From: Phlyctochytrium arcticum
Taxonomy: Eukaryota > Chytridiomycota > Chytridiomycetes > Chytridiales > Chytridiaceae
Reading direction: 5' to 3'
Assembly (NCBI GenBank): GCA_025602905.1
Contig: JAHLKI010000003.1
Span: forward strand, 1,668,286-1,732,285
DNA: 64,000 nt
Shown here one piece after another: positions 36,981 through 64,000 of the stretch. The stretch's first letter is position 1, and the number at the start of each line of letters is the position of its first letter. The notes below the pieces were generated by a model that worked only from the letters and a program-made list of their open reading frames with translations, was not told the origin of the DNA and made no database searches. The translations under genes were made by a program, and so were the position numbers.

Positions 36981-36994
36981 GGGTTAGGGTTAGG
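36981..36994 (+). repeat. telomeric tract T1 at the array boundary
   Basis: GGGTTAGGGTTAGG, about two TTAGGG units with the G-rich strand reading to the right, sits exactly between the truncated Gag-like gene and the 3' end of retrotransposon unit A. Confidence 0.85.
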
Positions 36995-39900
36995 AATAAC
37001 GGTTCTTATTAGGCTGGAGGCAATGTAGATACATCAGGTACTATCTAAATGACTAAAGTAATCAAGCTACATAGAGAAATGTCCAAAAAAAAGTGAAAAC
37101 AAGTAAAAATGGTCGAAAAAGTAGCATAAATACGCCGTGAAACACGCCAAAGCATGGCCAGGATATGTCCAGTAACTCCAAAGAATAGTGTGGGAACTTG
37201 CAAATTCTCATGGAATGGGCAATTTTTGGGAGGAAACTTGAAATTTGAGAGAAAAGTTGAAATGGTGATAAAGGAAGTGAGGACCAGAGTTGTTAGGAGA
37301 GTTAACAGGCGTGCGCAGAGTAGTGCTGAGTTGAAATCAAGGGGCAGCAGGCTTGCTTTCTGAAAAAACTTTGTGGTAAGGTGGGAAAATGTGGAAAAAA
37401 TGTCAACTTCATGCCTTGGGCATGATGAGAGAGCTTGAAAATGGTGTGTGCGGGGATTGCCATAGTCTACAAATGGTGTTACGGGAAGCTGTGCCGAGTT
37501 TGAGGTCATTTGAGTGATTTTTGATGGAGTTGGAAAAAATGAGGTATTGATAGTGTTTTCCCATATTTTGCAGAAGTCATATTAGAATGAACAAATACGG
37601 CAGGAGGATGATGAGATTTCGCCCACAGTTGCCGGCATGGGTGGTGTATGGGGTGGTGGGGTCATACTGGCTGGATGGGCGCATTTCAGGGAGCGCAGTA
37701 TGAGGGAAGAGGTGTTTTTTGTGGATGTCTGGTCTTGAAGAGCTGAAGGCAGGGAGAGATGATGGGCCTCACTAGTACATGTAGTAGTCGGAGCCAGGGT
37801 GGCTGTTGTTCATTGAGAGCCCAGATCGACTTAGAGACAGGAGACCACAGCAGGAGGAGAGAAGCGTGGGAAAAAAACGAAACTGGGTGATGTCGAGTCA
37901 ACAACCGGCCAGAGACGGTCGACGCACATGCCCCATGGGCTGGCAAGCGGGGACGTGGATGAGTTGACTTAAGAGCATACCGCATTAGCACCAAAAGTGA
38001 GGCCAGGAGGGGAAATCGGGTGTTTTGCCGAAATAGTAGATTGCAAGACTTGAGGTATTGAATTCCAGTCAAAATGAGGCAAACTGATACTAGGGTATTC
38101 CATTTGGGTACCATTTCGAGGCTGGGACGAAGTCCCAGAACGAGAAATGCATTTTGGAATTTGATGGGTTTTATTGTTGGTGGGTGGAGATGAATGCCAA
38201 GAGGATAAAGAGATTTTTGATGGGGGGGTAGTTGGAGACACAAGAGTAGGCAGGGTCTTGTTGGACACAGTGTTCTAGTGTTAGGTGGTGTTGTTGGCCA
38301 TCTTGTGGATGTTTTTTGTGAGGATGTCTATGAGGCAGGTGTGCTGAGGGTGGTACATGGTGTAAATTGGCCTTGGGAACTCGGGGTGGTGGGAGTGGGA
38401 CCATAGACACAGTTTTTCCAATGAGGTGGTAGAGTAGGTGACCAGAGGCGCCCAGTATGTTCCATATGGATCATGGAAAGTTGAGTTCCAGAGTGTGGGA
38501 GAAAAGTCGCGATTTTTCAGACAGAAACTCTTGCTACTAGAATAAGACACTACCAAAGTAGCATCAAGAGCACCGTAGCGTGTGGGGGGATGATTGGCCC
38601 TTAGCGCCCGACTCCGTAGATCCATAAATGGACAAGATGGCATGAGAAATACCGCCAAACAGCACAAACCCGGCCCTGGCAAGGAAAGTGATAATGGGCA
38701 GTGGGTTCTGGCACAGGGGGTGGTAGGGGGTACATAGACGGTGGTTTGGGGCCAGTTGTAGGTCATCCAGGTCGAGACTCAGGGGACAGGTGGCCAGGGA
38801 TAAAAATTCCAAAAATTTCGGGCTGTCCTCCAGACTAGGTAAACTTGATGAGGACTGAAAGGGACATGCTGAAAGTGGTACCAGAGCTGGAACCGGGTAC
38901 GGGGCGAGGGCGGGTATAGTCAAAAGTCTGTTGTCTTGATGCTCCTGCCTGATTCCAGGTGGTATGCATGGGGCTGGGTTGACATGGAAAAAGTTGATGA
39001 AAAAGGCTTGAGAGGGTGGCATATGCCGTATATACGGATGGGGAAGGTATAGACGGTTCTTTAGGTGACGTGCAAGCGTGTCCAAGTGCAAAGCTGTGGG
39101 TAAGGTGTCCAATCACAGGAAATACTAAAAATTCCCGCCATCCTCCAGACTAGGTAAAGTTCCTGTTGAGGTGTGATAAAGGGCCCATGATTGCACAGAA
39201 GTTGCAGGTGGGTATGGTGGGACATTTGTTGCTGTTGATTGGCGGTTTGCATGCCCCGTTTTTGATTTGGGGGTTGGTGCGGGTGGTGTTGAGGGTGGGT
39301 AGATGATAATGATGAAAACCACTGGACAGGGTGCCATATGTCACAGTGTTTGATAGAGGGGGTGTTGAAGGTGGTGTGGGTGAGATTTGGGTCCAATTGG
39401 AGCAAAATAAGTGGTAAAAAGTGCTGGAGATTGCGAAAGTCATAAATGCTCGGTTTTTGAGAAATATTTCTAAGTCCCAATACCCAGAAGCGTGATTGGC
39501 ATGTACTTCATGGCAATGGGGTCCCATAAGCCCAATTCTTCAGAGATACTGGAGAGCACCATTTCCGACTAGAGGGTGGAGCTTGGGAGTGTTGTTATAG
39601 GGTAATTCTCGAGGTTGTCATAGGTGCTGCTGTCTTGATAAACAAAGCTGCCAAATTTGAGACATGTGCATTCCAAAATTGCAAATTTTCAACATGAGCC
39701 TAGCCGTTCTGGGAGTTGAAGTGATGGATGTAGGGCATTTTGGAGGTCATACGTTTGCTCCTTGAGGTGGGGTTTGGTTGGATATTAACAAACTTTACCC
39801 AAGGGAAGCCGTTTTATCGGCGATCAGTGCAAACTAGTGGTACAGGCACTCCCCTGATTCAAATGGAGCATGAGTTGCAGAAACCTGACTTTGAAGGGTC

Positions 39901-40159
39901 GAGAAAAGAAAATTTGATGGTGTGGGGGTGGTGGGAGGAAAAAGGCAATCATCAAATTTGGGTACCAAATGCCAATAATGGGAGTGAGATTGTGAATGAT
40001 TGTAGCAAGGAGTTGATAAGGGAGAGTCCAGAGCAGTAAGTAGCTGAAGACTAGCAGTTTGATGGATTGTTGGTGAGAGGAAGTTGTGGTGTTCTTGGAG
40101 GTGAGGTGATGCCAGTTGTAATTGGGATAGTCTGAAGTTGATTGAAGCGGAGATCTGGA
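36995..40159 (-). other. 3' UTR of family 1 element, unit A
   Basis: 3.2 kb with no supported coding sequence; short frames vary and lack domains. Landmarks: a TATCTAAATGACTA motif at 37,043-37,056 shared with other families; a 17-bp cGAAg hairpin at 38,122-38,138; and a repeated CTCCAGACTAGGTAAA near 38,827 and 39,144. The first 1.1 kb recurs in units B, D and F. Confidence 0.7.
38122..38138. repeat. CTGGGAC-GAA-GTCCCAG hairpin
   Basis: A perfect 7-bp stem with a GAA triloop (UUC in element RNA). The same hairpin recurs at 48,495, at the equivalent places in units D and F, and twice in family 3 (63,508 and 63,557). Confidence 0.85.
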
Positions 40160-43100
40160 TTACATAATCACACCGATGGCCGCTGGAAAGTGAAGGGCGG
40201 TATTGGGGGGAGAAGCGGGTGACAGGGCAGATGAAAAGGGGGCCGCCGAAGGGATCACACGACCTGCCGGTGGGCGTAGTGCTTCTTGTTCCAAAGGGTC
40301 ACCCCATTCCTCGTCCATCAACTGTCGGTATACAATTTGAAGCAAGACCGCAAATAAATATCCGTCGGCATGGTTTACCACGCAATCCAATGCACTGTAC
40401 AGTTCCGTATCCAGTTTCTTGTCCAAGAGCCGTTGTCGATCCTTTAATAACCATTCCGAAATCCGCGGCCATTCTGCATGAGTCTCAAAGAACGGGAGCG
40501 CACATTCAATCATACAGCGGCGATTCACCCAACGGCGGCAGATATCACACTTCTTCCTTGACATAAGGACGTTTTCCCGCCACTTGATGGCCCATGGTCG
40601 GAGGACTGGAGGTTGCAGATAGAAGACGGAGTCAACATAACTCTGGGGGCGCCGGTACAGAATGTAGTTTGCCAGTGGGGAGCCTGCCGGTCCTGAATCA
40701 AAACGTCGGTACAGTAACTGGTCCAAATTTGATTTTCGAACATAGGACCGCCAGCTAATTGGATTTTCTTCTGGTGGTGAGGCCGCAACAACAGCACGCC
40801 AAGCGATCACGTCAGTAGGTGGTAGCAAACATCGAGGAAGAACTGCATCGATAGATAGTAATGGCGTGACGGGGGCCGCAATGGATGGCAAAGAGAACAA
40901 AGGATTGGATTGTGGCATCCTTTCCAAATGCAAAAAGTAGGAGCCCACCATATCAACAGCCCGATGGCTCCACTGTCCTAGCGCACTCATGCTCTCATGT
41001 AACTGTTGCGGTGCGAGTCGGCCAAATATCCAATCGAGGGCCTCGCAATGAAGCTTCTCTAATCCCGTACGCAACGGCAATCGACGGGGATCAGCACCAG
41101 ACCATATCCAGAAGGGAGGAAGACCGAAGTCTGTATGTGACCGAACGAAAGTTTTGTACAGGGTAAGTCGCACCACCACTGGCCAGAGATTTCCGCTAAT
41201 CATCAGAGCTTTAAGCATTCGAGTAGCCTTGCCAAGACGGATATCCAGATGATCTTTCCACATAATTCCTTTTGCCCCCGTCGGAAATCCAAGGTATTTG
41301 TAATTTTCAACCTTGGGTACAGACTTGCTGGCTAATAGAAGAGTAGGCGGGCCGGAAGCATCCCACTTGTCCTTCCAAACCACGCCGCACTTGCTATTAT
41401 TGAACTCCATCCCGTTTTCCGCTGCCCATATGGTACAAACATCCAGAAAGAGTTGTGCTTCCCTGATATCAATTGGCTGGAGTTTGATATCATCGGCATA
41501 GGCAAGAGATGGGGGGAATTTGCGGATGGTCAAATCTGTCATAGTATCCATTGTCAATAGCAAAGTGTCAATGAAAACATTGAATAACAGTGGTGAGACG
41601 AGTGACCCTTGAAACAGTCCACATTCACGCGAAACAGATGGCGTGAGTTCACCGTTGACAACGAAACGAGAGGATGGCTCGCGGCACATTAAACTATAGA
41701 CAAGTGCAACCGCCCACACTGATGCTCCTGCTTCTTTCACCCGCTCAAGTAAACGAGAATGCGGGACTCTATCATACGCGGCCTTTAGGTCCAAGTAAAT
41801 AGAGATGTCAGAGCCCAGACGAATACTTTCACTCCCAATGAGCGCTTGGGTAATAGCCGAATGCCGTGAGCGAAAGCCGCCCTGTCCAGGATGGACTTTG
41901 GCCCAATCTTCACCATGCCACACAGTCAATACTCTTTTCTCGAAAAGCCGACGCAGGACACAAGTATTGGCAATAGGCCGAGTGTCGGCAGGTCCAACGA
42001 GATCACCATCCACTTTGGCTGTCAAGGTCACATTTGCAGAGTTCCAACATTTGGGCGTCGTTCCCAAGCAGACACAAAGATAAAAAAACAAACTGATGTG
42101 ACTGGCAAAGACTTCACTTGCACACAGTGCCTTAAGCAGAATGGGAGGAACATTGTCCGGGCCAGAGCTTTTCGTGACAGGATACCCTCTTATCACCTTT
42201 TCTATACCTGCCCAATCTCCCACCACGGCAGCCATGGCACGCGCTACAACATCGCCAGCCGCAGGTATCTCAAAAGCAAGAGGTGGTGGGTTGGCTACCG
42301 GATTCTTGAAGATTTCAGCAAAATGCTCCACGACAGAATCCACTGCCGATACAGTACTCCCTTCAACACCAATGACCGGCTGTTTTCCCCGCAAGCTTCG
42401 TTTGAAAAGACGAGTGGCTGAACTTGCATCTTGAGCTCCACGCAATGCATCCTGAAGGTGGTCCGGCCGCATTTGCGCTACTGATGGGACATATGCTCCC
42501 AGCACCTGTTCACCAACAAAAAATATCCAATCCGATAGTAACTGTCCTATAAAATCAATCATCGCTTCACGATCCGCAAGTGACAGCGACATCCCTTCAT
42601 TCTTGAGGAACTGAAGAAGAGTATTGATATCCCAACTATCGCGGTCATATTCGGAGCAAATTCGTTCCTTGACTAGTGACTCCGAGAGGTACTTTACAAA
42701 TAGCCGGCGCGTGGGATTAGATCGGACATCAGGAGGAGGTGATGAGACCAATGGCCGAGAAGGTGGTGTCCAGTCAATCTTCATAATGCCATGATCGCTA
42801 CTAATTGGGGCCGTTTCATAGGACCATGACAAGGTAGTGGATGAGGTCAGGATATGGTCTAGTCTTGAGAGGCCAGAGACTGCCGGAAGAAGGTTCAAAT
42901 GGTGTCGAGAAGCAGTAGTCCAGAATGAGTGAGCACGTGGGGCGGGATCATTTAAGCGCCGTGGGTTATCCCCAGTGCGGCTACCCAAACGGACATTGAC
43001 ATCCCCAATAATAGCAACCGGCTTAGAGGTCATTTTTGGATTCAGAATTTCTTGGACAACATTCTCTTCGAGAGATGGCGGCAGATAGACAAAGAGGAAA

Positions 43101-43411
43101 TGTTGATTATGAATAGCCAGGGAGAGGGAGTACTCAGTTTTGGCCATATAGTTGATGAAGGGATGGAGACGAGGCGGGACTAGCGCCAGAAGGCCTCCGT
43201 TTTGATGGCCGTGAGTTCTGGGTTGAGATGGATATGAGGACCAGAACTGGGAGTATGGGTGAGTTTTTATATAATTCCAGGATGTAAACCAGGTTTCTGA
43301 AATGATGATGAGGTCGTAGACGTTGTTGTTGATGAGATCGATAAGAATATCCAGCTTCAAGGGTGTTAATCCTCGCGCGTTGATGTATCCGATGATGAGT
43401 TTACTATTCAT
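40160..43411 (-). CDS. retrotransposon ORF2: APE endonuclease and reverse transcriptase (family 1)
   Basis: 1,083 residues from the ATG at 43,411 (MNSKLIIGYINARGL). An in-frame ATG exists at 43,474 but lies inside ORF1. The APE-type endonuclease spans residues 1-220: N11 of I-N-A-R-G, an S-E-T-W motif, G-D-V-N-V-R with D137, and S-D-H with D206/H207. RT occupies about 400-720: SSGPDNVPPILLKALC, IYLDLKAAYDRVPHSRLLER, CGLFQGSLVSPLLFNVFIDT, and catalytic Y-A-D-D at 638-641. The C-terminus has a C-x2-C-x7-C-x3-C cluster from residue 955 (CDICRRWVNRRCMIEC). No RNase H is visible. The endonuclease would nick the target and RT would prime on it. Telomere-flanked copies suggest telomeric target specificity. 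Confidence 0.93.
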   Translation of the reverse strand: MNSKLIIGYINARGLTPLKLDILIDLINNNVYDLIIISETWFTSWNYIKTHPYSQFWSSYPSQPRTHGHQNGGLLALVPPRLHPFINYMAKTEYSLSLAIHNQHFLFVYLPPSLEENVVQEILNPKMTSKPVAIIGDVNVRLGSRTGDNPRRLNDPAPRAHSFWTTASRHHLNLLPAVSGLSRLDHILTSSTTLSWSYETAPISSDHGIMKIDWTPPSRPLVSSPPPDVRSNPTRRLFVKYLSESLVKERICSEYDRDSWDINTLLQFLKNEGMSLSLADREAMIDFIGQLLSDWIFFVGEQVLGAYVPSVAQMRPDHLQDALRGAQDASSATRLFKRSLRGKQPVIGVEGSTVSAVDSVVEHFAEIFKNPVANPPPLAFEIPAAGDVVARAMAAVVGDWAGIEKVIRGYPVTKSSGPDNVPPILLKALCASEVFASHISLFFYLCVCLGTTPKCWNSANVTLTAKVDGDLVGPADTRPIANTCVLRRLFEKRVLTVWHGEDWAKVHPGQGGFRSRHSAITQALIGSESIRLGSDISIYLDLKAAYDRVPHSRLLERVKEAGASVWAVALVYSLMCREPSSRFVVNGELTPSVSRECGLFQGSLVSPLLFNVFIDTLLLTMDTMTDLTIRKFPPSLAYADDIKLQPIDIREAQLFLDVCTIWAAENGMEFNNSKCGVVWKDKWDASGPPTLLLASKSVPKVENYKYLGFPTGAKGIMWKDHLDIRLGKATRMLKALMISGNLWPVVVRLTLYKTFVRSHTDFGLPPFWIWSGADPRRLPLRTGLEKLHCEALDWIFGRLAPQQLHESMSALGQWSHRAVDMVGSYFLHLERMPQSNPLFSLPSIAAPVTPLLSIDAVLPRCLLPPTDVIAWRAVVAASPPEENPISWRSYVRKSNLDQLLYRRFDSGPAGSPLANYILYRRPQSYVDSVFYLQPPVLRPWAIKWRENVLMSRKKCDICRRWVNRRCMIECALPFFETHAEWPRISEWLLKDRQRLLDKKLDTELYSALDCVVNHADGYLFAVLLQIVYRQLMDEEWGDPLEQEALRPPAGRVIPSAAPFSSALSPASPPNTALHFPAAIGVIM

Positions 43412-45581
43412 GTTCAGATGGAGCAGGGGACCCAATACGGACAATGCCATCATCGGGGCCAGTCTGCGCGGCATCAGATGAGGAAATGGCCGGTGTCGAA
43501 CTCATAGCAGTATCGGCAGTAAGGGTGGGATGTCTGGCCTTGATAGTGCAAACCCATGCACTAAACAGCTCCTTTACACCTTCATGCCGCGTCGTTTCTA
43601 CAACGCCTTCTACACGCCGCAAGTTCAATGCCAATACTTCTGGGGCACGGGGCGCGTTTGGATTATTGGTGGGATTGCGAGGAACGGCCGGGTTGAATAA
43701 GACATCAATATCCAAATTGCAGCGGCGCGCCTGTGCCCGGAATGACTGGTAGTAGTCTTCGTCAAGGGTGATCTCAAGAGTGGTCCCAATCCAAGAGAAG
43801 TTGCGGATCTTGGTCAGCATAAAATGCAACTTGTAGAAGACACTTTTCAACTCTTTGAATGACATCCTGGGCAGACTAGTCATGTAGACAATACGGAGAC
43901 CGAGGTCAACCGCAGCCTTTTCAACGGGGGTGCGAATGTCTGGCCTTTCCTCAATAACAGGGCGGCGGCTATCTACACGGCGGACATTGCGAGCCTTCTG
44001 AATAAGCCTGAGACCTTCGCGGATATCCTTCATCTTTTCTTTATTATCATCATCTTGTGGAAACCGCTGCACAATTTGTGCAAAAGACGGCTTTGGACGG
44101 GTAAGTGGTCTTTGCATTTCAATGTGCTCAACACCGGTCAGATCATTGATTTTGTCAACCAGATCCTCAGTCTGGTATTCAGTATCACGGCGAGTACCAA
44201 GCGGAGTTTTGTTGGCTTGTGAGATGACCGGGGTGTGGCGGCGGCGCGGTGTATTCCCTTGCGGTTGCACAGTAGTGGAAATGCGCGCGAAACTCGCAGC
44301 GTGGCTTGCTGCAGGCTCTACGTCACGGCTATTGCCATCGCAACGCCCCTCGAGCCCCTCTTTGCACGTTTCAGCAAACACCTTGCCGATCTTTACTACT
44401 TCTTCCTTTCCAACAGCAGCCGAGTTATGGGCCTTTAACATCTCCGCAACTTTACGCACGACCTCGTCTTCCATCTTTTCAAATCTTGCCTCCATAGATG
44501 CCTTGACGGACTTGAGTTCTGATGCCAGGTTGGTATTTTCTTTTTGAAGCCGCGCGTTCTCCTTAACCAATGCCTGATAGGACTCAACCGAGATCTCATC
44601 CGCTTCAAATAGTGGCTCCTCGCCATCACTATTTGCAACTTGTTTCCGAGGCTTGAACATAGAGACCAATGGGAACTTCTGTTGCTGGTTGTGAGGTGGG
44701 CTGACTTTCTTAAATACAGGTTTCCCCCGACGGCCAATGTGATTCCAAGACTCGTCTTCACCATCTTCATTACCATCATCACTACCATGAGTGATCCAGC
44801 CATTCAGACCACTTTTTCTCGGTGCCTGGGTATTACCAACACTACCACCACGGACACTATTGCCATTAGGAGGAGTGTGCAGTCTGTCACCATTGATACC
44901 AACAGCCGGCCGCATAGAACTACTGGCATTCCCATTGTGGTGTCTGCCATGGCCACTGTGGCTCTCGCTCTCATCACCTTCAAATGCAGCAATACCGGCG
45001 TACCCATGATACTGCATGCCAGTATCATCTTCCCCCCAGGACGGAGTACGCTCAACTGCCATCTTCTGAGAGCTTCCTGACATCAAAGCTTGGCTAGCTT
45101 TCTTTTCAATACCTTGCCCATGACCATTGCCAACAGTCACTACATCTTGCTTGACCATCCTCATTCCCTTGACACCACCAAACTTTGTTCCATATGCTGC
45201 ACGCATTGGCCCCTTGAGCAACTTTTCTTTGACCATCAGTTCCTCCATAGTTGAAGCAGCAAAAGAGGATTTACATTTCTGGCATTTGAAAGTGCGGGTT
45301 TCCCCCGAACTATTGCGTGCCATATTACCAACTGCCGATGTACAGGCCTTTCTGCCGCCATATCCAACGAGGGTGTTTGGGCAAGGCACTTTCAAACAAA
45401 GTTTGTCCCAGACAATATCCAAAGGATCCTTCACAGGAATGGAGCGGCCATTAGCATTCTTGACAAACTCTGGGAGTGAAAGGTAAGAGCCTTCATCATT
45501 CTCATCATCTGACGCATTGTGCAATCCAACAGATGCAGATCGAGAGCGGGCGCGGGTCATGTAGCTAGTTTGGCTACTCAT
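43404..45581 (-). CDS. retrotransposon ORF1 protein (family 1)
   Basis: 725 residues from ATG at 45,581 (MSSQTSYMTRARSRSAS). The frame is open further upstream but without sensible sequence. Order: basic Ser/Arg-rich start; a possible zinc finger, C-P-N-T-L-V-G-Y-G-G...FKCQKCKSSF, near residues 60-115; a long Gly/Asn/Asp-rich linker; a coiled coil (VKENARLQKENTNLASELKS, about residues 330-385) likely for trimerisation; a second linker; and a C-terminal globular part (LKSVFYKLHFMLTKIRNFSW) resembling ORF1p RNA-binding folds. It is expected to coat element RNA. Its stop overlaps the ORF2 start as ATGAATAG at 43,411-43,404. No CCHC gag knuckle is seen. Confidence 0.75.
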   Translation of the reverse strand: MSSQTSYMTRARSRSASVGLHNASDDENDEGSYLSLPEFVKNANGRSIPVKDPLDIVWDKLCLKVPCPNTLVGYGGRKACTSAVGNMARNSSGETRTFKCQKCKSSFAASTMEELMVKEKLLKGPMRAAYGTKFGGVKGMRMVKQDVVTVGNGHGQGIEKKASQALMSGSSQKMAVERTPSWGEDDTGMQYHGYAGIAAFEGDESESHSGHGRHHNGNASSSMRPAVGINGDRLHTPPNGNSVRGGSVGNTQAPRKSGLNGWITHGSDDGNEDGEDESWNHIGRRGKPVFKKVSPPHNQQQKFPLVSMFKPRKQVANSDGEEPLFEADEISVESYQALVKENARLQKENTNLASELKSVKASMEARFEKMEDEVVRKVAEMLKAHNSAAVGKEEVVKIGKVFAETCKEGLEGRCDGNSRDVEPAASHAASFARISTTVQPQGNTPRRRHTPVISQANKTPLGTRRDTEYQTEDLVDKINDLTGVEHIEMQRPLTRPKPSFAQIVQRFPQDDDNKEKMKDIREGLRLIQKARNVRRVDSRRPVIEERPDIRTPVEKAAVDLGLRIVYMTSLPRMSFKELKSVFYKLHFMLTKIRNFSWIGTTLEITLDEDYYQSFRAQARRCNLDIDVLFNPAVPRNPTNNPNAPRAPEVLALNLRRVEGVVETTRHEGVKELFSAWVCTIKARHPTLTADTAMSSTPAISSSDAAQTGPDDGIVRIGSPAPSEHE

Positions 45582-46045
45582 TTTGATAGAATGTCGGGTT
45601 TTTTCTTGATTTTTGTTTTTCTTCACTAGCAAGAATAGTTCTCTTGAATGTAGGAGGTAGCAATAATACTTTCTATGACCTTTGCGTTCGAGAAAGCATA
45701 CAAAGTCAATAACAGTGGCACTCAGAAGAAACAACAAAGAACTCAATAGGAGAAGACACAGGTCCAAGATCTTGAATTTCAAAGCTTGACTTTTTCCTTC
45801 ACACTGACAAGAAGTAACACCGTCCGGGCAGTACTGAGCCCCTGGGTATTACTGTAGCTGCAGCTCACAGGTGAAAGCAAGGAAAAAAGTTTTTTAGCAG
45901 TTGAAATGCTGAGATCTCGATTTTTTCCAAAAAAGTGCCCAGAGGGCAATTTTTTTCTCCAGAAGAAACCTGACTGCTTCAAACAACAATGCCAGTGGTA
46001 AGAGAGTGGTTCTTTATGGAGTGTTGCGGTTGCTGGTGGTATGTC

Positions 46046-47448: not shown

Positions 47449-48571
47449 GAAATGTCCAAAAAAAAGTGAAAACAAGTATAAATGGTCGAAAAAGTAGCAT
47501 AAATACGCCGTGAAACACGCCAAAGCATGGCCAGGATATGTCCAGTAACTCCAAAGAATAGTGTGGGAACTTGCAAATTCTCATGGAATGGGCAATTTTT
47601 GGGAGGAAACTTGAAATTTGAGAGAAAAGTTGAAATGGTGATAAAGGAAGTGAGGACCAGAGTTGTTAGGAGAGTTAACCGGCGTGCGCAGAGTAGTGCT
47701 GAGTTGAAATCAAGGGGCAGCAGGCTTGCTTTCTGAAAAAACTTTGTGGTAAGGTGGGAAAATGTGGAAAAAATGTCAACTTCATGCCTTGGGCATGATG
47801 AGAGAGCTTGAAAATGGTGTGTGCGGGGATTGCCATAGTCTACAAATGGTGTTACGGGAAGCTGTGCCGAGTTTGAGGTCATTTGAGTGATTTTTGATGG
47901 AGTTGGAAAAAATGAGGTATTGATAGTGTTTTCCCATATTTTGCAGAAGTCATATTAGAATGAACAAATACGGCAGGAGGATGATGAGATTTCGCCCACA
48001 GTTGCCGGCATGGGTGGTGTATGGGGTGGTGGGGTCATACTGGCTGGATGGGCGCATTTCAGGGAGCGCAGTATGAGGGAAGAGGTGTTTTTTGTGGATG
48101 TCTGGTCTTGAAGAGCTGAAGGCAGGGAGAGATGATGGGCCTCACTAGTACATGTAGTAGTCGGAGCCAGGGCGGCTGTTGTTCATTGAGAGCCCAGATC
48201 GACTTAGGGACAGGAGACCACAGCAGGAGGAGAGAAGCGTGGGAAAAAAACGAAACTGGGTGATGTCGAGTCAACAACCGGCCAGAGACGGTCGACGCAC
48301 ATGCCCCATGGGCTGGCAAGCGGGGACGTGGATGAGTTGACTTAAGAGCATACCGCATTAGCACCAAAAGTGAGGCCAGGAGGGGAAATCGGGTGTTTTG
48401 CCGAAATAGTAGATTGCAAGACTTGAGGTATTGAATTCCAGTCAAAATGAGGCAAACTGATACTAGGGTATTCCATTTGGGTACCATTTCGAGGCTGGGA
48501 CGAAGTCCCAGAACGAGAAATGCATTTTGGAATTTGATGGGTTTTATTGTTGGTGGGTGGAGATGAATGCC
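47449..48571 (-). mobile_element. family 1 fragment, unit B (3' UTR only)
   Basis: Nearly identical to 37,075-38,198 of unit A with a few substitutions (for example AACAGGCGT to AACCGGCGT). It lacks the terminal about 90 bp and the telomeric junction, having been fused to the minisatellite at a GAGAA microhomology. Its 5' truncation falls at GATGAATGCC, next to telomeric tract T2. Confidence 0.9.
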
Positions 48572-54327: not shown

Positions 54328-54337
54328 TAGGGTTAGG
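54328..54337 (+). repeat. telomeric tract T3
   Basis: TAGGGTTAGG between the truncated 5' end of unit C and the intact 3' end of unit D. Confidence 0.8.
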
Positions 54338-55541
54338 AATAACGGTTCTTATTAGGCTGGAGGCAATGTAGATACATCAGGTACTATCTAAATGACTAAA
54401 GTAATCAAGCTACATAGAGAAATGTCCAAAAAAAAGTGAAAACAAGTATAAATGGTCGAAAAAGTAGCATAAATACGCCGTGAAACACGCCAAAGCATGG
54501 CCAGGATATGTCCAGTAACTCCAAAGAATAGTGTGGGAACTTGCAAATTCTCATGGAATGGGCAATTTTTGGGAGGAAACTTGAAATTTGAGAGAAAAGT
54601 TGAAATGGTGATAAAGGAAGTGAGGACCAGAGTTGTTAGGAGAGTTAACCGGCGTGCGCAGAGTAGTGCTGAGTTGAAATCAAGGGGCAGCAGGCTTGCT
54701 TTCTGAAAAAACTTTGTGGTAAGGTGGGAAAATGTGGAAAAAATGTCAACTTCATGCCTTGGGCATGATGAGAGAGCTTGAAAATGGTGTGTGCGGGGAT
54801 TGCCATAGTCTACAAATGGTGTTACGGGAAGCTGTGCCGAGTTTGAGGTCATTTGAGTGATTTTTGATGGAGTTGGAAAAAATGAGGTATTGATAGTGTT
54901 TTCCCATATTTTGCAGAAGTCATATTAGAATGAACAAATACGGCAGGAGGATGATGAGATTTCGCCCACAGTTGCCGGCATGGGTGGTGTATGGGGTGGT
55001 GGGGTCATACTGGCTGGATGGGCGCATTTCAGGGAGCGCAGTATGAGGGAAGAGGTGTTTTTTGTGGATGTCTGGTCTTGAAGAGCTGAAGGCAGGGAGA
55101 GATGATGGGCCTCACTAGTACATGTAGTAGTCGGAGCCAGGGCGGCTGTTGTTCATTGAGAGCCCAGATCGACTTAGGGACAGGAGACCACAGCAGGAGG
55201 AGAGAAGCGTGGGAAAAAAACGAAACTGGGTGATGTCGAGTCAACAACCGGCCAGAGACGGTCGACGCACATGCCCCATGGGCTGGCAAGCGGGGACGTG
55301 GATGAGTTGACTTAAGAGCATACCGCATTAGCACCAAAAGTGAGGCCAGGAGGGGAAATCGGGTGTTTTGCCGAAATAGTAGATTGCAAGACTTGAGGTA
55401 TTGAATTCCAGTCAAAATGAGGCAAACTGATACTAGGGTATTCCATTTGGGTACCATTTCGAGGCTGGGACGAAGTCCCAGAACGAGAAATGCATTTTGG
55501 AATTTGATGGGTTTTATTGTTGGTGGGTGGAGATGAATGCC
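54328..55541 (-). mobile_element. family 1 fragment, unit D
   Basis: The 1.2-kb 3' part of family 1, with the complete 3' terminus (sense end ...AACCGTTATTCCTAACCC). It is truncated at the same GATGAATGCC point as units B and F. Confidence 0.9.
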
Positions 55542-55590
55542 AGGGTTAGGAGTTAGGGTTCGTTAGGGTTAGGGTTAGGAGTTAGGGTTC
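55542..55590 (+). repeat. telomeric tract T4
   Basis: 49 bp containing AGGGTTAGGAGTTAGGGTTC-G twice with TTAGGGTT between. It is 29 bp longer than T2, by duplication of the family 2 terminal telomere-like segment. Confidence 0.88.
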
Positions 55591-58500
55591 GTTTAATTCA
55601 GAAGAGTGTGTAGAAATACAAGAAGTAGATCTACAAGCTATCTATCTAAAGACTAGACCAAAAGTCAAGAAAAAATGCAGAACTAAGGTAAAATGTGTCA
55701 GGAAAGGGAGTAGATGACGAGAACAAATAGAAGAGTACGCCGGAAGGTACGCTCTATGATGTCTGTAGGTATCCAGAAGTAGTCCATAGGGATCTTGGTT
55801 TGTTTGGGACCAAAATGTGTGGGAAAAATGACAAATGTTGTGTTTTTGTGGCAAAGATGATGAGGTATTGTGTCGTTTGGGAGTAGTAAATCTTGTAGAG
55901 GGCGTTGAGTTGGATTGAAATGATTAGGGCCATATTGATCCAGAGCTGAGATATGAGGCAGTGGCAAGAAAATGGTGGCGAGGGTGAGATTTGTGACCAA
56001 AGTAATGAAGCAAGGTGACTTGCTGCCTAGTTGAATCTTGTAGCGGGCGTTGACGTGAGTTGAAATGATTAAGGGCATGTCGAGTCAGCGGTCTTGTATG
56101 AGGTAATGGCAAGGAAATGGCGGCAAAGGTGTGAATTGTGATCAAACTGATCAAACAATGTGACTTGCGGGTGTAGATAATCGTGTAGAGGGCGTCAACT
56201 TGAATTGAAATGGTGAGGGACATTTTGACTCAGCGACGTTGTATGAGGTGGTGGCTAACAAATGGCAAAAAGACCGGAGATGTCATCAAAAACATGAAGC
56301 CATGCGGCTAGGACGTTGATGATGCATAGAAAAGGTGCTGGGGATGTTGTTTGAGGGTGTAGGTGTCGAAAGAGGTCAATTGTACTATGCTAGGTCTTGA
56401 ATAGCGAGCATGGTGCTGCGCAACGACCTGCGCAGTAGAGAAGCATCTTGTGCGCAATTCGAAATCCAAAGACGTCGCCGGGTGGAGGGAGTGATGCAAC
56501 GACGATGAGTGGACGTTGAAGATGGCAACGAATGGGCGGTTGGTGTCAAAAGAGGTGAAAAATGTCGAAATCCTTGAGGGGGTACCAAACACACCCGCGA
56601 CGTTGAAGAAGACGATGAAGAAGGGGAATCAGAGACCCGGGGAGCTGGCGGGTGATGGGGGGAGTGTTGAGGAAGGCGTGGTCCAATTTGCAACCAAATC
56701 CGGTACGATTTGCTTAATTGAAGCGGTCCAGTAGGGCAGTGGGAAAAACGCGCAGTAACAGTTCCTCCCAGAATGGCGAAGCCATTCTGAACCCAGGACA
56801 CAGGGGGACTTCGAGCGGCATCCCGAAGGGATGCAGAAAGGTAAGAGGTGTCTGCTGTTGATTGAGTATGATGCCCATAGAGCCGTCCGTGACCGTTTTC
56901 CCGCGATTTACCACCGTGACGGACAATGACAGTGAACTTGACGAAATCAGCCCATACGACGCTGAATACATTGTCGTTGGTAGGGAATACGTGGGAAATG
57001 GTGTGGAACAAATCTGACAGCCAACGGAGACACCTCACCTAAGGCGAAATGACACAGAGGCGTGGTACCCAAAATCGCCACGGCCCGTCCCTTCAGTACA
57101 ACGTACGCACCGTAACGTCTACCACTGCAGCAAAAATCCAGAAGCAGCAGACAAAGTATACGGAGAGAGGCACGAAGCAGAAACCGAAGTTTCAGAGGTG
57201 GGAGAAGGATTTGGTGACTGGTATAGGGGGAGTGGCAAGAGATGAGCGGCATTTGATGGAAACATGGGCTAGCTTACTGGGCATTACGCCAGGGACGCCC
57301 GGCACGAGGCCGAACGTATGGCCACCTGTCGGCCGTGCCCAGAGGTTGGGGGAGAGATGGGGTTGATGGTGTAGGGGGGTGGTGAGAGGTGTGCGGCAAA
57401 TGGAGGAAACATGGGCTAGCTTACTGGGCATTACACCAGGGACGCCCAGCACGAGGCCGAGCGTATGGCCACCTTTCGGCCGTGCCCAGAGGTTGGGGGA
57501 GAGATGGGGTTGATGGTGTAGGGGGGGTGGCGGGTGATGTGTCGAAGTTGGCGTAGGCGTAAGCTTTCTTGCTGAAACTTTTACCAGTGACGCCCAGCAC
57601 TAGGCCGAGCGTTTGGTGCACACTTGATGTCGGTAGGGGGGAAACTGGAGAAGGGGTATCGAATTTTCAAAATGGAAAAAATATCGCGGGACCCGACCTC
57701 ATATCAAAAAATCCAGAGAGTAGCTCCACTGCTGCACCGAAGTGACCAGAAGGTGTGGAAACATGTACCCGAAGGTAGACTGGAGGATAAGGCGAGGGAT
57801 GAGATGTGGGGTGTTGAAAAATACGGTGTTGAGAGTCGATATCGGCCAAAATTTCGAACTTCGTCAAAAGAGCCTCAATCCAGAAGTGGTGTCGTGAGTT
57901 GATAGAGAACATCGTCCCATTCAATAAACTGCAGGTTGGAGTTCGGTCGGAAGCAGATCAATTAAGAGAAGTTTAGGAATACGGCAGGTACTTATCCAAT
58001 AAGACCGGAATTGATAATGCGACACGTCCAGAGCTCCAACGGCCATCGGACTTTCACCTCTTGGCCCGCAAGGGATATTTCGAGAGTTGGATGGAGGAGT
58101 GGGAGGGGTATGGGGATGTTGGGGGGTGCTCGACTCGTCACTGCCGGCGGCGTGCCCGAAGGACCCGCGCAACGTGGTTGTGAGCCACGGGCAAGTGACG
58201 AGGAGGGGAGAGCTTTCGCAGGGTGGTTGTTGAGAGGGTTATGGAGGGGTGACTTGAGGAGTGGTGTATGAAAGGTGTCAAGAAAGTGATGAACCGTTGA
58301 TTAATGTCGGTTTTGGAACTGGTGCTTGTCTGTTGAAATTTGAGATCTGGTGCTGACGTAATCACCGTTTGGAGCGGAAATCTTGAAGAGTTGCAAAAGT
58401 TGAGAGACAAGGACCTCAAGAGGAACCAGAGGCGACGGGGGATGGGAGCAGCTCGGCAACTGATGGTTGGGGAAGAGCGGGAGGTGGTCTTGTCAGTGCT

Positions 58501-61325
58501 TTTTGCTCCTCGGCATCACCCCATTCTTCTTCAAAGAGATCGGCGTAAACAGACTTGAGCAAGCGAGCAAACAAATAGCCGTCCCCGTGGTTCAACGCAG
58601 CGTCCAGAGCCGAATACAGTTCACCATCCAGGTTTGCCAAATGAAGCCGCTTCCTATCAAAGGTGATCCAAGTATCCAACTGGGACCATTCCGCGAGCGC
58701 TTCAAAACCAGGCAAGGCACAGGTGATCATACACCGGCGGTTGGCAGCTCTCTTGCAAACTCCACACATCTTGCGACCCATCATCGTATTCTCCCGCCAA
58801 TGCAGCGCCCATGATCGGAGCGCAACGGGTTGAATCCAAAATGCACGGTCGATGTATGTGCCAGGCCGGCGGTTGAGAATGTAAGCGGGTAGTTGAGCGC
58901 CCGGGCCGACTTGATTGACACGACGTTGAACAATGTCTTCAACGCCCTTCTTGCGAATCCAAGCTTTCCAACCAATGCGAGGACGTTCTCCTTCCTTCAG
59001 ATCCGCGATACCGGCGGCAGTCATCCAAGCTTCTATCTCCACCGGTTTCCGCAGACACCGTGGCAATATGGCATTGATAGATAACTCCGAGACGCCGGGG
59101 TTGACAACAGACGATAAGTGAAACAACGGGTTTGAGCGGGGCATCCAGTCCAAGTGGATATAGTAGGAACCAATCATGGTCACCGCACGGTGATCCCATT
59201 TGCCCAACGCCGACATACTTTCGTGCAACCCGCGCGGCGGCAGTCTTCCGAAGATCCATTCCAGCCCGCGGATATGAAGTTGTTCCAACCCATCTCGCGT
59301 TTGCTTGCGATCTTGATCATGCATACTCCAAACCCAAAAGGCGGGAAGACCGAAGTCAGTGTGGGATCGCACAAAGATCTTGTAAAGTGTCAAGCGGACA
59401 TTTTCACACCAAAGATCGCCGCTAAGCATCAGTGCCTTCAGCATTTTGTTTGCCTTGCTCAGTCGAACCTCCAGATGTTCTGACCAAATGATGCCGCGGG
59501 ATGAAGTGGGGAAGCCCAGATACCGGTAACTGGACACATTTGGCACGGCCTTACCGGAGAGTATCAACTCCGGCGGGCCATCCGCGTCCCAGCTACCTTT
59601 CCAGGTTATCCCGCACTTCTTGTGATTAAATATCATGTCATTTAATGTTGCCCAGGCCGAGCAGGCGTCCAGAAACATTTGCGCTTCTTGGATGTCCAAA
59701 GGCTGTAATTTCAAATCATCGGCATACCCAAGGATAGGAGGAAATCGGCGTGAGGCAATGTCTGTAAATTCATTGATGAAAACGAGCAGCGAGTCTATGA
59801 AGATGTTGAAAAGGAGTGGGGATAGGAGTGACCCTTGAAAGAGACCACACTCCCGTTCCAATGAACTAGTCAAAACTCCATTGACCACAAATCTAGACGA
59901 TGGCTGCCGACACATCATACTGGATATCAGAGCCAGTGCCCACACACCAGCTCCGGCTTGTCTTGCCCGTTCCAAATCAAATGAAATCGGACGCGGTCAT
60001 AGGCAGCTTTGAGGTCAAGGTAAATAGAGATATCCGCCCCTAAACGGATACTTTCATCACTGACTAACGCTTGAGTTGTTGCCGCATGCCGAGACCGGAA
60101 ACCGCCCTGTGCTGGATGCACCGCGCTCCACGGCTCTTTTTCAAAAACAGACAAGACTCGGCGTTCAAACAATCGACGCAACACCGAAGTGTTTGATATA
60201 GGCCGGGTGTCCTCCGGGGCGACTTTGTCGCCCACCACCTTGGCCAATAACGTAACGTTCGAGGAGTTCCAACAGAGCGGTGTGGTCCCCAACCGGACAC
60301 ACAGGAAAAAGAATAAAGAGATATGTGAGGCGAAAACTTTGCTACTCATCAACGCTTTCAGCAACACTGGCGGGACATTGTCCGGACCTGAACTCTTCTC
60401 AGACGGGTAAGACTGAATGACTTTTTCCACTTGCTCCCATTCGCTAATTTGCTTGGCCATATCCTCCGCTTGCTGGTCATACTGTTCCGGGCAGTATGGG
60501 GCAAGTGGGGGATTAATTGAAGGACTCTTGAAAATGTCGGCATAGTGAGAGGTAACGGCATCCATTGCCGAAACAGTTGGATCATCCGTACCGATACGCG
60601 GTTGTTTGCCACGCATACTTCTCTTGAATAATCGGGTGGCGGTATTGGCATTGGTAATAAGACGCAAACTTTCTTGCATCTTATCCGGCCGCTTCTTTGC
60701 TTCCGAAGGAACATACGACCCGAGAACACGCTCGCCAACATCAAATATCCAGAGAGAAAGAGCTTCACCAATAACATCAATAACTTCTTGACGTTCATCG
60801 AGAGAAAAGGACGGGCCATCGCTTTTCAAACGAGCAAGGGCGTAGGTCAACTTCAACTCATCCAAATCATATTGCTGAATGAGTTTTTTCTGGATCCGTT
60901 CATCACAAAGATACTTTGTGAAGAGGCGACGGGTAGGAGACTCTTGGGTTGCGGGAGGTGTCAAAGGCGTAGTAGGTGAATGACTCCAACGAATGCGCAT
61001 CATGTCATGATCTGACTCGACGGGACTAGGGACATAGTGCCATTCAAGCTCAATGTCCTTGGCCAGGACATGATCCACACGACTAATTCCACTCGCGGCC
61101 GGGATTAACCGCAAGCTTTGACGGGACGCACCGGTCCAGAAAGTCTTAGCGCGTGGGGCAGGATGGTTATTGAATTTCGCGGAATCACCGGTCTTTCGAC
61201 CAAGGCGAACGTTGAAATCTCCAATAATGGCGACGGGGGGCGGCGTCGTTTGAGAAGAGATAATTGCGGAGACTTGTGGTTCGGGTAGAGAGGGAGGGAG
61301 GTAGATGAAGTGGAAGGGTGTGTTG
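55542..61325 (-). mobile_element. family 2, unit E (copy of unit C)
   Basis: Virtually identical to unit C, including the same 5' truncation point before TAGGGTTAGG. It has one base deleted in ORF2 (see next entry). Confidence 0.92.
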
Positions 61326-61327
61326 TA
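58416..61327 (-). pseudogene. ORF2 of family 2, second copy, frameshifted
   Basis: Same as 51,417-54,327 except that a run of four A (52,975-52,978) has three A at 59,974-59,976. This shifts the frame within the RT at the D-L-K-A-A-Y-D-R-V-R-F-H-L-I segment. The upstream part (to 59,927) and the downstream part (from 59,975) are otherwise intact. A homopolymer indel could be biological or a sequencing artefact. Confidence 0.92.
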
Positions 61328-62539
61328 GGGTTAGGAATAACGGTTCTTATTAGGCTGGAGGCAATGTAGATACATCAGGTACTATCTAAATGACTAAAGT
61401 AATCAAGCTACATAGAGAAATGTCCAAAAAAAAGTGAAAACAAGTATAAATGGTCGAAAAAGTAGCATAAATACGCCGTGAAACACGCCAAAGCATGGCC
61501 AGGATATGTCCAGTAACTCCAAAGAATAGTGTGGGAACTTGCAAATTCTCATGGAATGGGCAATTTTTGGGAGGAAACTTGAAATTTGAGAGAAAAGTTG
61601 AAATGGTGATAAAGGAAGTGAGGACCAGAGTTGTTAGGAGAGTTAACCGGCGTGCGCAGAGTAGTGCTGAGTTGAAATCAAGGGGCAGCAGGCTTGCTTT
61701 CTGAAAAAACTTTGTGGTAAGGTGGGAAAATGTGGAAAAAATGTCAACTTCATGCCTTGGGCATGATGAGAGAGCTTGAAAATGGTGTGTGCGGGGATTG
61801 CCATAGTCTACAAATGGTGTTACGGGAAGCTGTGCCGAGTTTGAGGTCATTTGAGTGATTTTTGATGGAGTTGGAAAAAATGAGGTATTGATAGTGTTTT
61901 CCCATATTTTGCAGAAGTCATATTAGAATGAACAAATACGGCAGGAGGATGATGAGATTTCGCCCACAGTTGCCGGCATGGGTGGTGTATGGGGTGGTGG
62001 GGTCATACTGGCTGGATGGGCGCATTTCAGGGAGCGCAGTATGAGGGAAGAGGTGTTTTTTGTGGATGTCTGGTCTTGAAGAGCTGAAGGCAGGGAGAGA
62101 TGATGGGCCTCACTAGTACATGTAGTAGTCGGAGCCAGGGCGGCTGTTGTTCATTGAGAGCCCAGATCGACTTAGGGACAGGAGACCACAGCAGGAGGAG
62201 AGAAGCGTGGGAAAAAAACGAAACTGGGTGATGTCGAGTCAACAACCGGCCAGAGACGGTCGACGCACATGCCCCATGGGCTGGCAAGCGGGGACGTGGA
62301 TGAGTTGACTTAAGAGCATACCGCATTAGCACCAAAAGTGAGGCCAGGAGGGGAAATCGGGTGTTTTGCCGAAATAGTAGATTGCAAGACTTGAGGTATT
62401 GAATTCCAGTCAAAATGAGGCAAACTGATACTAGGGTATTCCATTTGGGTACCATTTCGAGGCTGGGACGAAGTCCCAGAACGAGAAATGCATTTTGGAA
62501 TTTGATGGGTTTTATTGTTGGTGGGTGGAGATGAATGCC
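61326..62539 (-). mobile_element. family 1 fragment, unit F (begins with telomeric tract T5)
   Basis: Third short copy of the family 1 3' end, identical in structure to unit D. T5 is TAGGGTTAGG at 61,326-61,335. Confidence 0.9.
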
Positions 62540-63074
62540 AGGGTTAGGAGTTAGGGTTCGTTAGGGTTAGGGTTAGGAGTTAGGGTTCGTTTAATTCAGA
62601 AGAGTGTGTAGAAATACAAGAAGTAGATCTACAAGCTATCTATCTAAAGACTAGACCAAAAGTCAAGAAAAAATGCAGAACTAAGGTAAAATGTGTCAGG
62701 AAAGGGAGTAGATGACGAGAACAAATAGAAGAGTACGCCGGAAGGTACGCTCTATGATGTCTGTAGGTATCCAGAAGTAGTCCATAGGGATCTTGGTTTG
62801 TTTGGGACCAAAATGTGTGGGAAAAATGACAAATGTTGTGTTTTTGTGGCAAAGATGATGAGGTATTGTGTCGTTTGGGAGTAGTAAATCTTGTAGAGGG
62901 CGTTGAGTTGGATTGAAATGATTAGGGCCATATTGATCCAGAGCTGAGATATGAGGCAGTGGCAAGAAAATGGTGGCGAGGGTGAGATTTGTGACCAAAG
63001 TAATGAAGCAAGGTGACTTGCTGCCTAGTTGAATCTTGTAGCGGGCGTTGACGTGAGTTGAAATGATTAAGGGC
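62540..63074 (-). mobile_element. family 2 fragment, unit G (with telomeric tract T6)
   Basis: T6 (62,540-62,589) equals T4. About 485 bp of the family 2 3' end follow and are cut at GATTAAGGGC, next to the telomeric tract at 63,075. This truncation differs from that of units C and E, so it arose by a separate event. Confidence 0.9.
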
Positions 63075-63085
63075 TTAGGGTTAGG
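63075..63085 (+). repeat. telomeric tract T7
   Basis: TTAGGGTTAGG between unit G and a third, different element family. Confidence 0.8.
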
Positions 63086-64000
63086 ATGTGAGGAGAGTGT
63101 TATTTGAGAGCATGCACATATACAGAACATATCTATCTATAAGACTAACTAGAAAAAACGAGAAAAAGGAGCAAAAAATGATAAAACTACGAAAAAAGGC
63201 GATTTCAGACTGGAGCCCGGCAGTGGGGAGGAACGGTGAGTGAGGGGGAGTAATCCAGAAAGATGCGCACGGCAAAGAGCGTTAAGATGTCCTAAGACAC
63301 CTTATGTGCAAGGGTGGGTGAATGGGTCGAGAAAACGCGAAAAATGGTGGTAAGAAGGGACTTGGGGTTTGGAGGGCATTTCAGCCTGAGAGACGCGTGG
63401 CCCGTGCTTGGGAAGATGTGGTGGATGAGGTAGAGCAGCGGGGCAGAGGTGGAGGCCGAGGTGGTGGTGAGGGAGGTGATGTAGCGGTGATGGCAACAAT
63501 TCCAGAGCTGGGACGAAGTCCCAGAGTAGAAGACGGTGGTGGTAACAATTCCAGAGCTGGGACGAAGTCCCAGAGTAAAAAAGGATGGTCGGGGAGAGTG
63601 TTGCGTGGTCTGGGGGAGGTCGAAGGCCGGGTGGTATTAATGATGGGGATGGCCAGGACGTGGGGTAGCGGGGGTTGCACACAGCGGTGATTTTGGTGAA
63701 GGGCCCGATGGAATTAGTGATGGGGATGGCCAGGAGGTAATGGGGATGAGAAATGCGTGGGAGGGGTGAATGCAGGCTGCGCGGTGCCGATGGTAACGGC
63801 ATACGCCGGGAGATGATGTGGGGAGAGTTGTCGGTGGGAGAGAAGGCGTGGAGGGTTGCTGTGTCCTTATCCAATGCCGGTGATGGGAAGGCCGATGTAT
63901 TTGGTGGAGGGGAAGGTCGCGGCCGTGTGGTTGTTGTGATGGCGAGGGTGGTGGGGATATGGGTGAAAGCGCGGGGAGGTCGTGGCGGTGATGCAGCGGG
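63075..64000 (-). mobile_element. family 3 element, 3' end only (runs off the window)
   Basis: New sequence after T7. Near its 3' end it has TATCTATCTATAAGACTA (63,131-63,148), similar to the motif in families 1 and 2. It also has two copies, 49 bp apart, of the CTGGGAC-GAA-GTCCCAG hairpin (63,508 and 63,557). No coding sequence is supported; by analogy this is the 3' UTR of a related minus-strand element. Its ORFs would lie beyond the window. Confidence 0.65.

Follow-up and report, generated by a model that had tools for sequence, protein, structure and literature searches.

Head-to-tail arrays of AP-endonuclease non-LTR retrotransposons with short telomere-like tracts at their 3' ends in the chytrid Phlyctochytrium arcticum

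How does a chain of retrotransposons come to stand at the end of a fungal contig with a telomere-like tract at nearly every junction? The window analysed here is the final 64 kb of contig C3 of Phlyctochytrium arcticum. Its right edge is the end of the contig, so a telomere, if there is one, lies to the right, as a preliminary description of the same DNA had supposed. That description, which was also correct in assigning the DNA to a fungus, recognised at positions 36981-64000 a head-to-tail array of non-LTR elements, all on the minus strand and of three families (called A, B and D here), with TTAGGG at nearly every junction and element 3' ends pointing left, which is inward from the contig end. 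Comparison of the window with itself confirmed this arrangement and defined eight units (Table 1); tail positions were set from the fixed 3' boundaries of the elements. Seven of the eight 3' ends bear a telomere-like tract of 9-18 nt, whereas the eighth, at 47447, meets its neighbour without a tail, GAGAA being present on each side of the joint. A 7-kb unit composed of an A fragment and B is duplicated at 99.65% identity (47447-56076 versus 54417-63074), and the eight units therefore represent fewer independent insertions.

Table 1. Features of the array, in window coordinates.
Feature	Positions	Strand	Remarks
Probable D' micro-fragment, inner anchor of the array	36950-36983	-	34-bp exact match (100%) to D' coding DNA at C6:722203-722236
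Element A tail, 14 nt	36981-36994	+	GGGTTAGGGTTAGG on the + strand
Element A, longest copy	36995-47451	-	3' UTR 36995-40159, ORF2 40160-43501, ORF1 43404-45848
A fragment, last 89 bp (3') missing	47447-48571	-	joined to 19-bp repeat, no tail
Element B tail, 9 nt	48572-48580	+	
Element B, 5'-truncated inside the endonuclease domain	48581-54327	-	ORF2 frame 51417-54332
A tail, 10 nt	54328-54337	+	
A, 5'-truncated to 1.2 kb	54338-55542	-	
B tail	55543-55579	+	18-nt GTTAGGGTTAGGGTTAGG at 55562-55579, second short tract (AGGGTTAGGAGTTAGGGTTC) before it
Element B, second copy of the 7-kb unit	55580-61325	-	ORF2 frame split: 58416-59996, 59927-61330
A tail, 10 nt	61326-61335	+	
A, 5'-truncated, copy of 54338-55542	61336-62540	-	
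B tail, copy of 55543-55579	62541-62577	+	
B, 5'-truncated to about 0.5 kb	62578-63074	-	
Element D tail, 11 nt	63075-63085	+	TTAGGGTTAGG
Element D, 3' portion, interrupted by the end of the contig	63086-64000	-	

The longest A copy encodes an ORF2 of 1113 aa with AP endonuclease (APE) and reverse transcriptase (RT) and an ORF1 of 814 aa, measured stop to stop; its 5' end is a 19-bp tandem repeat present 74 times (46045-47451). At the inner anchor the D' micro-fragment corresponds to C3 1705268-1705235, and the native D' continuation has GGG in common with the A tail. The ORF2 frame of the first long B copy (971 aa) covers the RT and the last part of the APE. The second partial tract in the B tails occurs at both 55543 and 62541, and TTAGGGTTAGGG is found twice in the window, both times in the duplicated B tail, versus no occurrence in 100 shuffles. 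Potential G-quadruplex motifs (loop up to 12) number 16 on the outward G-strand of the array and none on the other strand; the remainder of the window has 4 and 8 on its two strands.

The preliminary description was also right that these are APE-type elements. Families A, D and E have ORF1 and an ORF2 with AP endonuclease and RT, and intact open reading frames occur among the elements. Exo_endo_phos was detected in ORF2 of A and E and, partially and below the curated cut-off, in truncated B; the ORF2 profile aligns over both APE and RT with LINE-1 ORF2p, and the endonuclease motif residues are retained among the ORF2 sequences compared. The same description had proposed partners lacking an endonuclease, which we reject: the B copies of the window are related to B2 and E but have lost 5' sequence, and the ORF2 of B2 and E includes the endonuclease region. 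A longer D copy (C27:17005-24662) spans 7.66 kb, with an ORF1 of 745 aa, an ORF2 of 1307 aa and a 21-bp tandem repeat at the 5' end. The dN/dS ratios of 0.067 (B/B2) and 0.054 (E/E2) indicate strong purifying selection in both pairs compared. The 5' regions are rare: the ORF1 region of A was found in six copies, one fragment on C26 and two weak matches on C12, versus 16 A 3' ends. In a tree of 35 proteins with few named references, family D stands apart from A, B and E with environmental proteins in between, and protein searches scoring 8000 candidates each returned no match named Tad.

On the sequence evidence we read the TTAGGG tracts as tails of 9-18 nt that belong to the elements (sense strand CCTAACCCTAA) and not as stretches of telomere. 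The edge of the tail is fixed on the element side, after TTAGG in A, D, D' and E, and its register varies on the target side. We counted 57 tail-bearing 3' ends on 17 contigs, plus one more at C57:54063; outside the window the tailed families include E, D' and the divergent A2, B2, E2 and D2. Tail length in 33 distinct joints takes every value from 9 to 15 nt, with one joint at 18 nt, in a tabulation that excluded an A copy bearing one additional T and three B2 copies read in another register. Among 3' ends found by similarity rather than by the tail, a tail was present in every case (A 16/16, D 12/12, B 11/11, B2 3/3, D' 8/8 and E/E2 7/7, one of the last seen only as a motif hit). No poly(A) tail was found on these elements. 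By eye, a putative hairpin resembling TGTA-loop-TACA lies about 35 nt before the tail.

The proposal that the elements target telomere repeats is not supported in that form. The tail adjoins truncated retroelement DNA, and not a telomere tract, at 17 joints with an uncut copy for comparison, and (TTAGGG)4 does not occur in the 31.5 Mb assembly. Nor was any exact tandem repeat, TTAGGG or other (units of 5-12 nt, three or more copies), found when the last 300 bp of 43 contig ends were searched. At joints between elements, the 3' end of the outer one is attached to the truncated 5' end of its inner neighbour. Microhomology between joint and tail averages 1.75 nt versus 0.73 nt expected (P 0.0003, 16 distinct joints; of 25 joints listed, 8 were without an uncut copy and one was dropped for two mismatches, and the uncut copies are near-exact). 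The cut element resumes beyond the next element in none of 11 joints tested, two of which had less than 1 kb of outer DNA. Microhomology and a missing continuation are also expected from ordinary 5' truncation.

The array in the window is one of several with the same polarity. At eight of the nine contig ends found to fall inside an element, the tails point inward (the right ends of C3, C46, C57, C8 and C33; the left ends of C28, C47 and C66); the ninth, the left end of C8, starts inside an inverted D-D pair with its tail outward. Because the right ends of C8 and C33 share one anchor, seven independent ends support this polarity (two-sided sign test, about 0.016 for seven ends, calculated by hand, and 0.008 for eight). 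Outer segments are 99.8-100% identical on different anchors: 17.1 kb between C46 and C27, 14.5 kb between C3 and C6, and 8.4 kb between C3 and C46. When 13 large contigs were picked by size, matches to the window's array were found in the outer 500 bp of only 2 of their 26 ends, both on C8.

Tailed elements stacked head to tail at the contig end suggest addition to chromosome ends that have broken or eroded, although none of the assembled ends was seen to run into a telomere. We consider the best reading, with a probability of about 0.52, to be end-primed addition like that of MoTeR and HeT-A, performed by an APE-type lineage and leaving internalised relics. At its 3' end the element RNA would have roughly two C-strand repeats of the telomere (CCUAACCCUAA, in some cases with CCC), and base pairing over one to three positions would hold this tail to an exposed DNA 3' end, either at a chromosome end that has broken or eroded or at a break elsewhere in the chromosome. 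Such annealing would prime the RT to extend that DNA end, so that each new element would lie with its 3' end on the inner side and its 5' end on the outer, and the outermost element would be the newest. Erosion or incomplete copying would truncate the 5' end, the next element would be added there, and head-to-tail chains would grow, presumably at chromosome ends. Exchange between ends would spread and amplify the chains, some of which would be internalised as relics or as end-to-end joints. Priming by the tail on DNA ends, if it occurs, would represent a natural system between LINE retrotransposition and telomerase.

Most of the tailed copies found lie in arrays of consistent polarity, as the preliminary description expected of copies across the genome; because three loci are flanked on either side by DNA other than elements, and four more have elements face to face, that expectation is neither refuted nor cleanly borne out. 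The internal loci are C6:414923-434569, C6:about 719485-724110 and C12:697644-702096, and the arrays of C41 and C63 likewise lie away from contig ends. Such loci, together with the face-to-face arrangements, the absence of (TTAGGG)4 and a telomerase RT gene region, weigh against a purely telomeric reading. By eye, the second C6 locus may have arisen by insertion close to where a host reading frame ends. The C12 flanks gave no convincing shared reading frame when checked for contiguity, and the inner one resembles LTR-element DNA by eye. Elements face each other on C17, which contains a 16.8-kb palindrome, and on C27, C50 and C75. An identical D-D joint recurs amid different flanks in C27 and, in reverse, in C50 and C8; the E-E joint of C75 contains ACCCTAACCCTAAAA, which is missing from both native copies.

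The internal loci bear on a possible but rather unlikely course of events, in which APE-nicked target-primed reverse transcription inserts elements into short telomere-like sites, chiefly the tails of earlier elements. The newest element would then be innermost, and array growth would not be confined to chromosome ends. Loci flanked on either side by non-element DNA fit such nesting, as do the retained endonuclease residues and the internal anchor C6:724110, which bears one, two or three D' tails in C6, C65 and C66; the microhomology and missing continuation would then be normal 5' truncation. However, internal arrays should break both ways, whereas eight of nine contig ends have tails inward, and outer segments common to different anchors are typical of chromosome ends. 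Moreover, no target-site duplication was recognised by eye at C12 or at the second C6 locus, where the cut is placed only approximately.

The fixed element-side edge, the APE endonuclease and a telomerase RT gene region would also suit insertion of the SART/TRAS kind at a fixed place in real (TTAGGG)n, the surrounding repeats having later been lost until about two were left. We doubt this strongly, since the tracts do not exceed 18 nt in 33 distinct joints and directly abut truncated elements, and the loss would have had to halt at about the same length every time; the elements also lack poly(A), and no telomere arrays are assembled.

Telomerase, which the preliminary description had raised as a point to check, has a candidate gene region at C19:314085-314640, where Telomerase_RBD matches three stretches (best E 6.8e-11). 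RT motifs recognised there by eye are presumably TERT-like. Pfam named only the RBD in five frames of the region, a PDB search with one TERT piece gave no match, and a POT1 search and its control were both without a match. A Drosophila-like loss of telomerase was set aside as the main reading because of these RBD stretches. We think it quite improbable that the RNA tail is a portable telomerase-like template, with ends built mainly by several cooperating APE-type LINE families and telomerase secondary or partly lost; the absence of (TTAGGG)4 from the assembly and a tail of about two repeats agree with that reading. Its truth would mean Drosophila-like end maintenance of independent origin in an early-diverging fungus.

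The RBD stretches would agree, too, with telomerase healing broken ends with one or two repeats, elements without a tail of their own then being added to these seeds; telomere formation in Magnaporthe by extension of seeds of 1-4 nt is described in part of PMC7367193. Longer and more variable tracts would be expected from healing, whereas no family has tracts longer than 18 nt, internal loci included, and we hold it very unlikely. It seems highly improbable that misassembly of near-identical repeats produced most of the face-to-face and contig-end structures, leaving real elements about whose position and polarity nothing could be concluded: the D-D joint repeated amid different flanks and the C17 palindrome could be so explained, but the tail joints are exact to the base and, in several families, are met again with other partners, and neither the window nor the joined stretches contain N.

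We found no description of these elements in the open-access literature, subscription papers lying mostly outside the search, and no telomere title for Phlyctochytrium arcticum. The words chytrid and non-LTR are missing from the main text of a paper on fungal telomeres (PMC8381367). In excerpts of a 2023 paper on telomere-associated retrotransposons the fungal case is MoTeR1, a CRE element (PMC10088271), and FoTeR, reported in 2025, is placed in the same CRE clade in part of PMC12857005.

The elements have counterparts in several known systems. HeT-A, TART and TAHRE of Drosophila form chains of 5'-truncated elements, each 3' end joined to a truncated 5' end with no telomere arrays between, and similar chains occur here. 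The Drosophila elements have oligo(A) tails and their host has no telomerase, whereas the elements here have a CCTAACCCTAA tail and a host with a TERT gene region. Endonuclease-deficient Penelope-like elements at telomeres have telomere repeats carried by or adjoining the element; those described here differ in encoding an AP endonuclease and a LINE-type RT. SART and TRAS of Bombyx mori (R1 clade) resemble them in their APE endonuclease and association with telomeric repeats. Yet SART ends in poly(A) and its target needs at least three TTAGG repeats, according to part of PMC7265360, whereas the elements here have a telomeric tail and are joined to truncated elements or other DNA, not to one place in telomeric arrays.

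Comparable in layout are MoTeR of Magnaporthe oryzae and FoTeR of Fusarium oxysporum, which also form head-to-tail arrays with telomere repeats at the 3' end. As described in part of PMC7367193, MoTeR elements have their 5' ends towards the chromosome end, and internal relics that have lost 5' sequence retain telomere repeats at the 3' end; 5' tandem repeats like those found here are described for FoTeRs in part of PMC12857005. Terminal position is reported for MoTeR and FoTeR, whereas here we infer it from an array at a contig end without an assembled telomere tract. Tract lengths differ as well, from half a repeat to more than 20 repeats in MoTeR and from 3 to 8 repeats at FoTeR 3' ends, compared with 9-18 nt here. 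MoTeR and FoTeR belong to the CRE clade and have a restriction-like endonuclease, whereas the elements of P. arcticum have an AP endonuclease and two ORFs. If APE-type families in a chytrid have a telomeric tail in common, association with telomeres would have arisen in a further LINE lineage of fungi.

The window's right edge is the end of its contig, since C3 has 1732285 bases in the assembly analyzed (G000; 91 contigs, 31.48 Mb total). Self-comparison and the 3' boundaries divide the array there into eight units of three non-LTR retrotransposon families, all on the minus strand. Seven of the eight 3' ends bear a "tail", a short telomere-like tract of the TTAGGG type, which upholds the preliminary description of a head-to-tail array with TTAGGG at nearly every junction. 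A unit of about 7 kb comprising A and B is a duplication, present twice at 99.65% identity. At the tail-less joint, position 47447, the 5' tandem repeat of A meets a piece of A from which the final 89 bp are missing, and the two sides have GAGAA in common; the joint is a recombination or end-joining scar. The D' match at the inner edge of the array is probably a micro-fragment or filler, and a gag-like frame, judged by eye (Pfam was blank), is interrupted by the array at 36984. Positions 1-36950 are ordinary chromosome arm. The chitin synthase encoded there agrees at 98% with a P. arcticum protein across 95% of the query, in line with the identity of the genome as that chytrid's. Two P. arcticum contigs, 31225 and 31254 bases long, bear chitin synthases (P0035 and P0036) that are 98% and 89% like the one in the window; these contigs may be C76 and C77, which share the B fragment at 11.3 kb of the window, and the copies may be haplotigs or a recent duplication.

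Features of the window and of related loci in assembly G000 (positions without a contig name are window positions)
Feature	Position	Description
Window	C3:1668286-1732285	right edge is the end of C3
eIF3c gene	6.5-8.8 kb	
B-like piece	11342-11536	195 bp, 74% like B ORF2, opposite orientation, outside array; similar pieces on C76 and C77
Chitin synthase	14.3-16.7 kb	
Chitin-binding polysaccharide deacetylase	19.5-21.3 kb	
Ty3-like element	23.2-27.9 kb	
Copia-like element	31.1-35.1 kb	LTRs 98.9% identical
D' match	36950-36983	34 bp identical to D' coding DNA, without D' tail
Array	36981-64000	A, A fragment, B, A, B, A, B fragment, D
Reading frame	C6:409567-412443	959 aa, repeated SQSTYDTRQTTID motifs, no Pfam match; adjoins internal array
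Internal array	C6:414923-434569	three B and two A; non-element DNA on either side
D' locus	C6:about 719485-724110	D' truncated at its 5' end, flanked by the end of a gene and by a different reading frame
Solitary B2	C12:697644-702096	4.5 kb
Telomerase_RBD stretches	C19:314085-314640	three matches
Inverse A fragment	C26:44800-45342	5' tandem repeat, 5' UTR and ORF1 start; rest of A missing

The elements are securely identified. Counted stop to stop, ORF1 and ORF2 span 814 and 1113 aa in A, 745 and 1307 aa in D, and 746 and 1074 aa in E, and the ORF2 of B2, a divergent relative of B, has at least 1054 aa. For A and E, Pfam reports both Exo_endo_phos and RVT_1; the domains of D were compared by alignment only. 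Columns E69, D167, N169, D236 and H237 (A numbering), which we take to be the catalytic residues, are invariant across ten aligned ORF2 proteins, and a profile built from that alignment spans the endonuclease and RT of LINE-1 ORF2p together (E 1.3e-38). In three families the sequence extends to the 5' end, and a tandem repeat lies there, with units of 19 bp (A), 21 bp (D) and about 22 bp (D'). ORF2 is open in all four A copies that span it, in one of two D copies, in one of the window's two longer B copies (it is broken in the other), and in all three E copies inspected, a count to which a single palindrome contributes both of its arms. The dN/dS ratios, 0.067 for B/B2 and 0.054 for E/E2, indicate that those families have been active.

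Tails terminate 57 3' ends, plus one read later (C57:54063). Because some of these ends were retrieved through the tail motif itself, those found by similarity were counted separately, and every one carries a tail: A 16/16, D 12/12, B 11/11, B2 3/3, E/E2 7/7 and D' 8/8. At 33 distinct joints the tail measures 9 (n = 4), 10 (4), 11 (12), 12 (1), 13 (1), 14 (4), 15 (6) or 18 (1) nt, leaving aside one A copy with an extra T, three B2 copies in another register, and C57:54063 (10 nt). The edge of the tail is fixed on the element side and falls in many registers on the target side. Scattered single matches to TTAGGGTTAGG outside elements mean little, since the motif occurs 68 times genome-wide and the reversed pattern 37 times.

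Among the contig ends read (the assembly has 182), nine lie inside an element, and in eight the tails point inward: the right ends of C3, C46, C57, C8 and C33, and the left ends of C28, C47 and C66. The right ends of C8 and C33 share an anchor, the DNA on the inner side of the array, so seven cases are independent (a two-sided sign test gives about 0.016 for seven, worked out by hand, and 0.008 for eight). The ninth, the left end of C8, begins within a face-to-face D-D pair. Most of 26 ends from 13 contigs chosen by size are something else, since only the two of C8 match the window's array in the outer 500 bp; five of 41 end pieces compared with that array matched.

Where an uncut inner copy is available, the next tail directly abuts the truncated element. 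Tail and uncut copy share 2, 1, 3, 2, 3, 1, 2, 2, 0, 1, 1, 0, 1, 2, 5 and 2 bases at 16 joints, a mean of 1.75 compared to 0.73 in simulated joints (P 0.0003). The cut element resumed farther out in none of 11 tests, two of which had little outer DNA. On C27, a D remnant of about 59 bp lies between the anchor and A. The truncated-element joints, the microhomology and the missing resumption fit addition of elements to DNA ends; nested 5'-truncated insertions would look alike. Several mechanisms can be proposed, and the one that fits best is tail-primed addition to DNA ends.

The loci on C6 and C12 (Table), together with the following, count against a purely terminal location. The anchor of the D' locus on C6 carries two D' tails in C65 and three in C66, and C65 starts with the outer flank seen on C6. 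C41 and C63 have in common an array, built of A2, D2 and B-like pieces, that is not at contig ends. Two arrays with facing 5' ends occur on each of C17, C27, C50 and C75; C17 contains a near-palindrome of 16.8 kb with differing flanks, C27, C50 and C8 have one D-D joint in common, with every base identical, and the joint on C75 holds 15 telomere-like bases missing from both parents. In Magnaporthe, internal MoTeR relics keep 3' telomere repeats and are put down mainly to end joining of resected tips (PMC7367193). We prefer this reading for the loci described here; some joints may be misassemblies.

No telomere tract was seen in a search for (TTAGGG)4 across the assembly or among tandem repeats in the outer 300 bp of 43 contig ends; the chromosome tips may simply be unassembled. 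5.8S rRNA gave no match in the assembly among 39 scored of 1001 candidates. A profile search of the contigs located the Telomerase_RBD stretches on C19, and one match crosses two TAA, presumably within an intron. Frames nearby contain GIPQGSVLSTILC and LLLRYVDDFLYITTD, which we take to be TERT RT motifs of a putative gene. Of this region, Pfam confirmed only the RBD.

The nearest proteins are environmental (P0001, 42% over 94%; the next ones 28-32%). A tree of 35 proteins joins A, B and E in one group, with P0001 outside that group and D apart, so that the tailed set requires two changes on the tree; the tail therefore either predates that split or was gained twice. By analogy, the elements would work as MoTeR and HeT-A do, but their endonuclease type and tail place them with neither.
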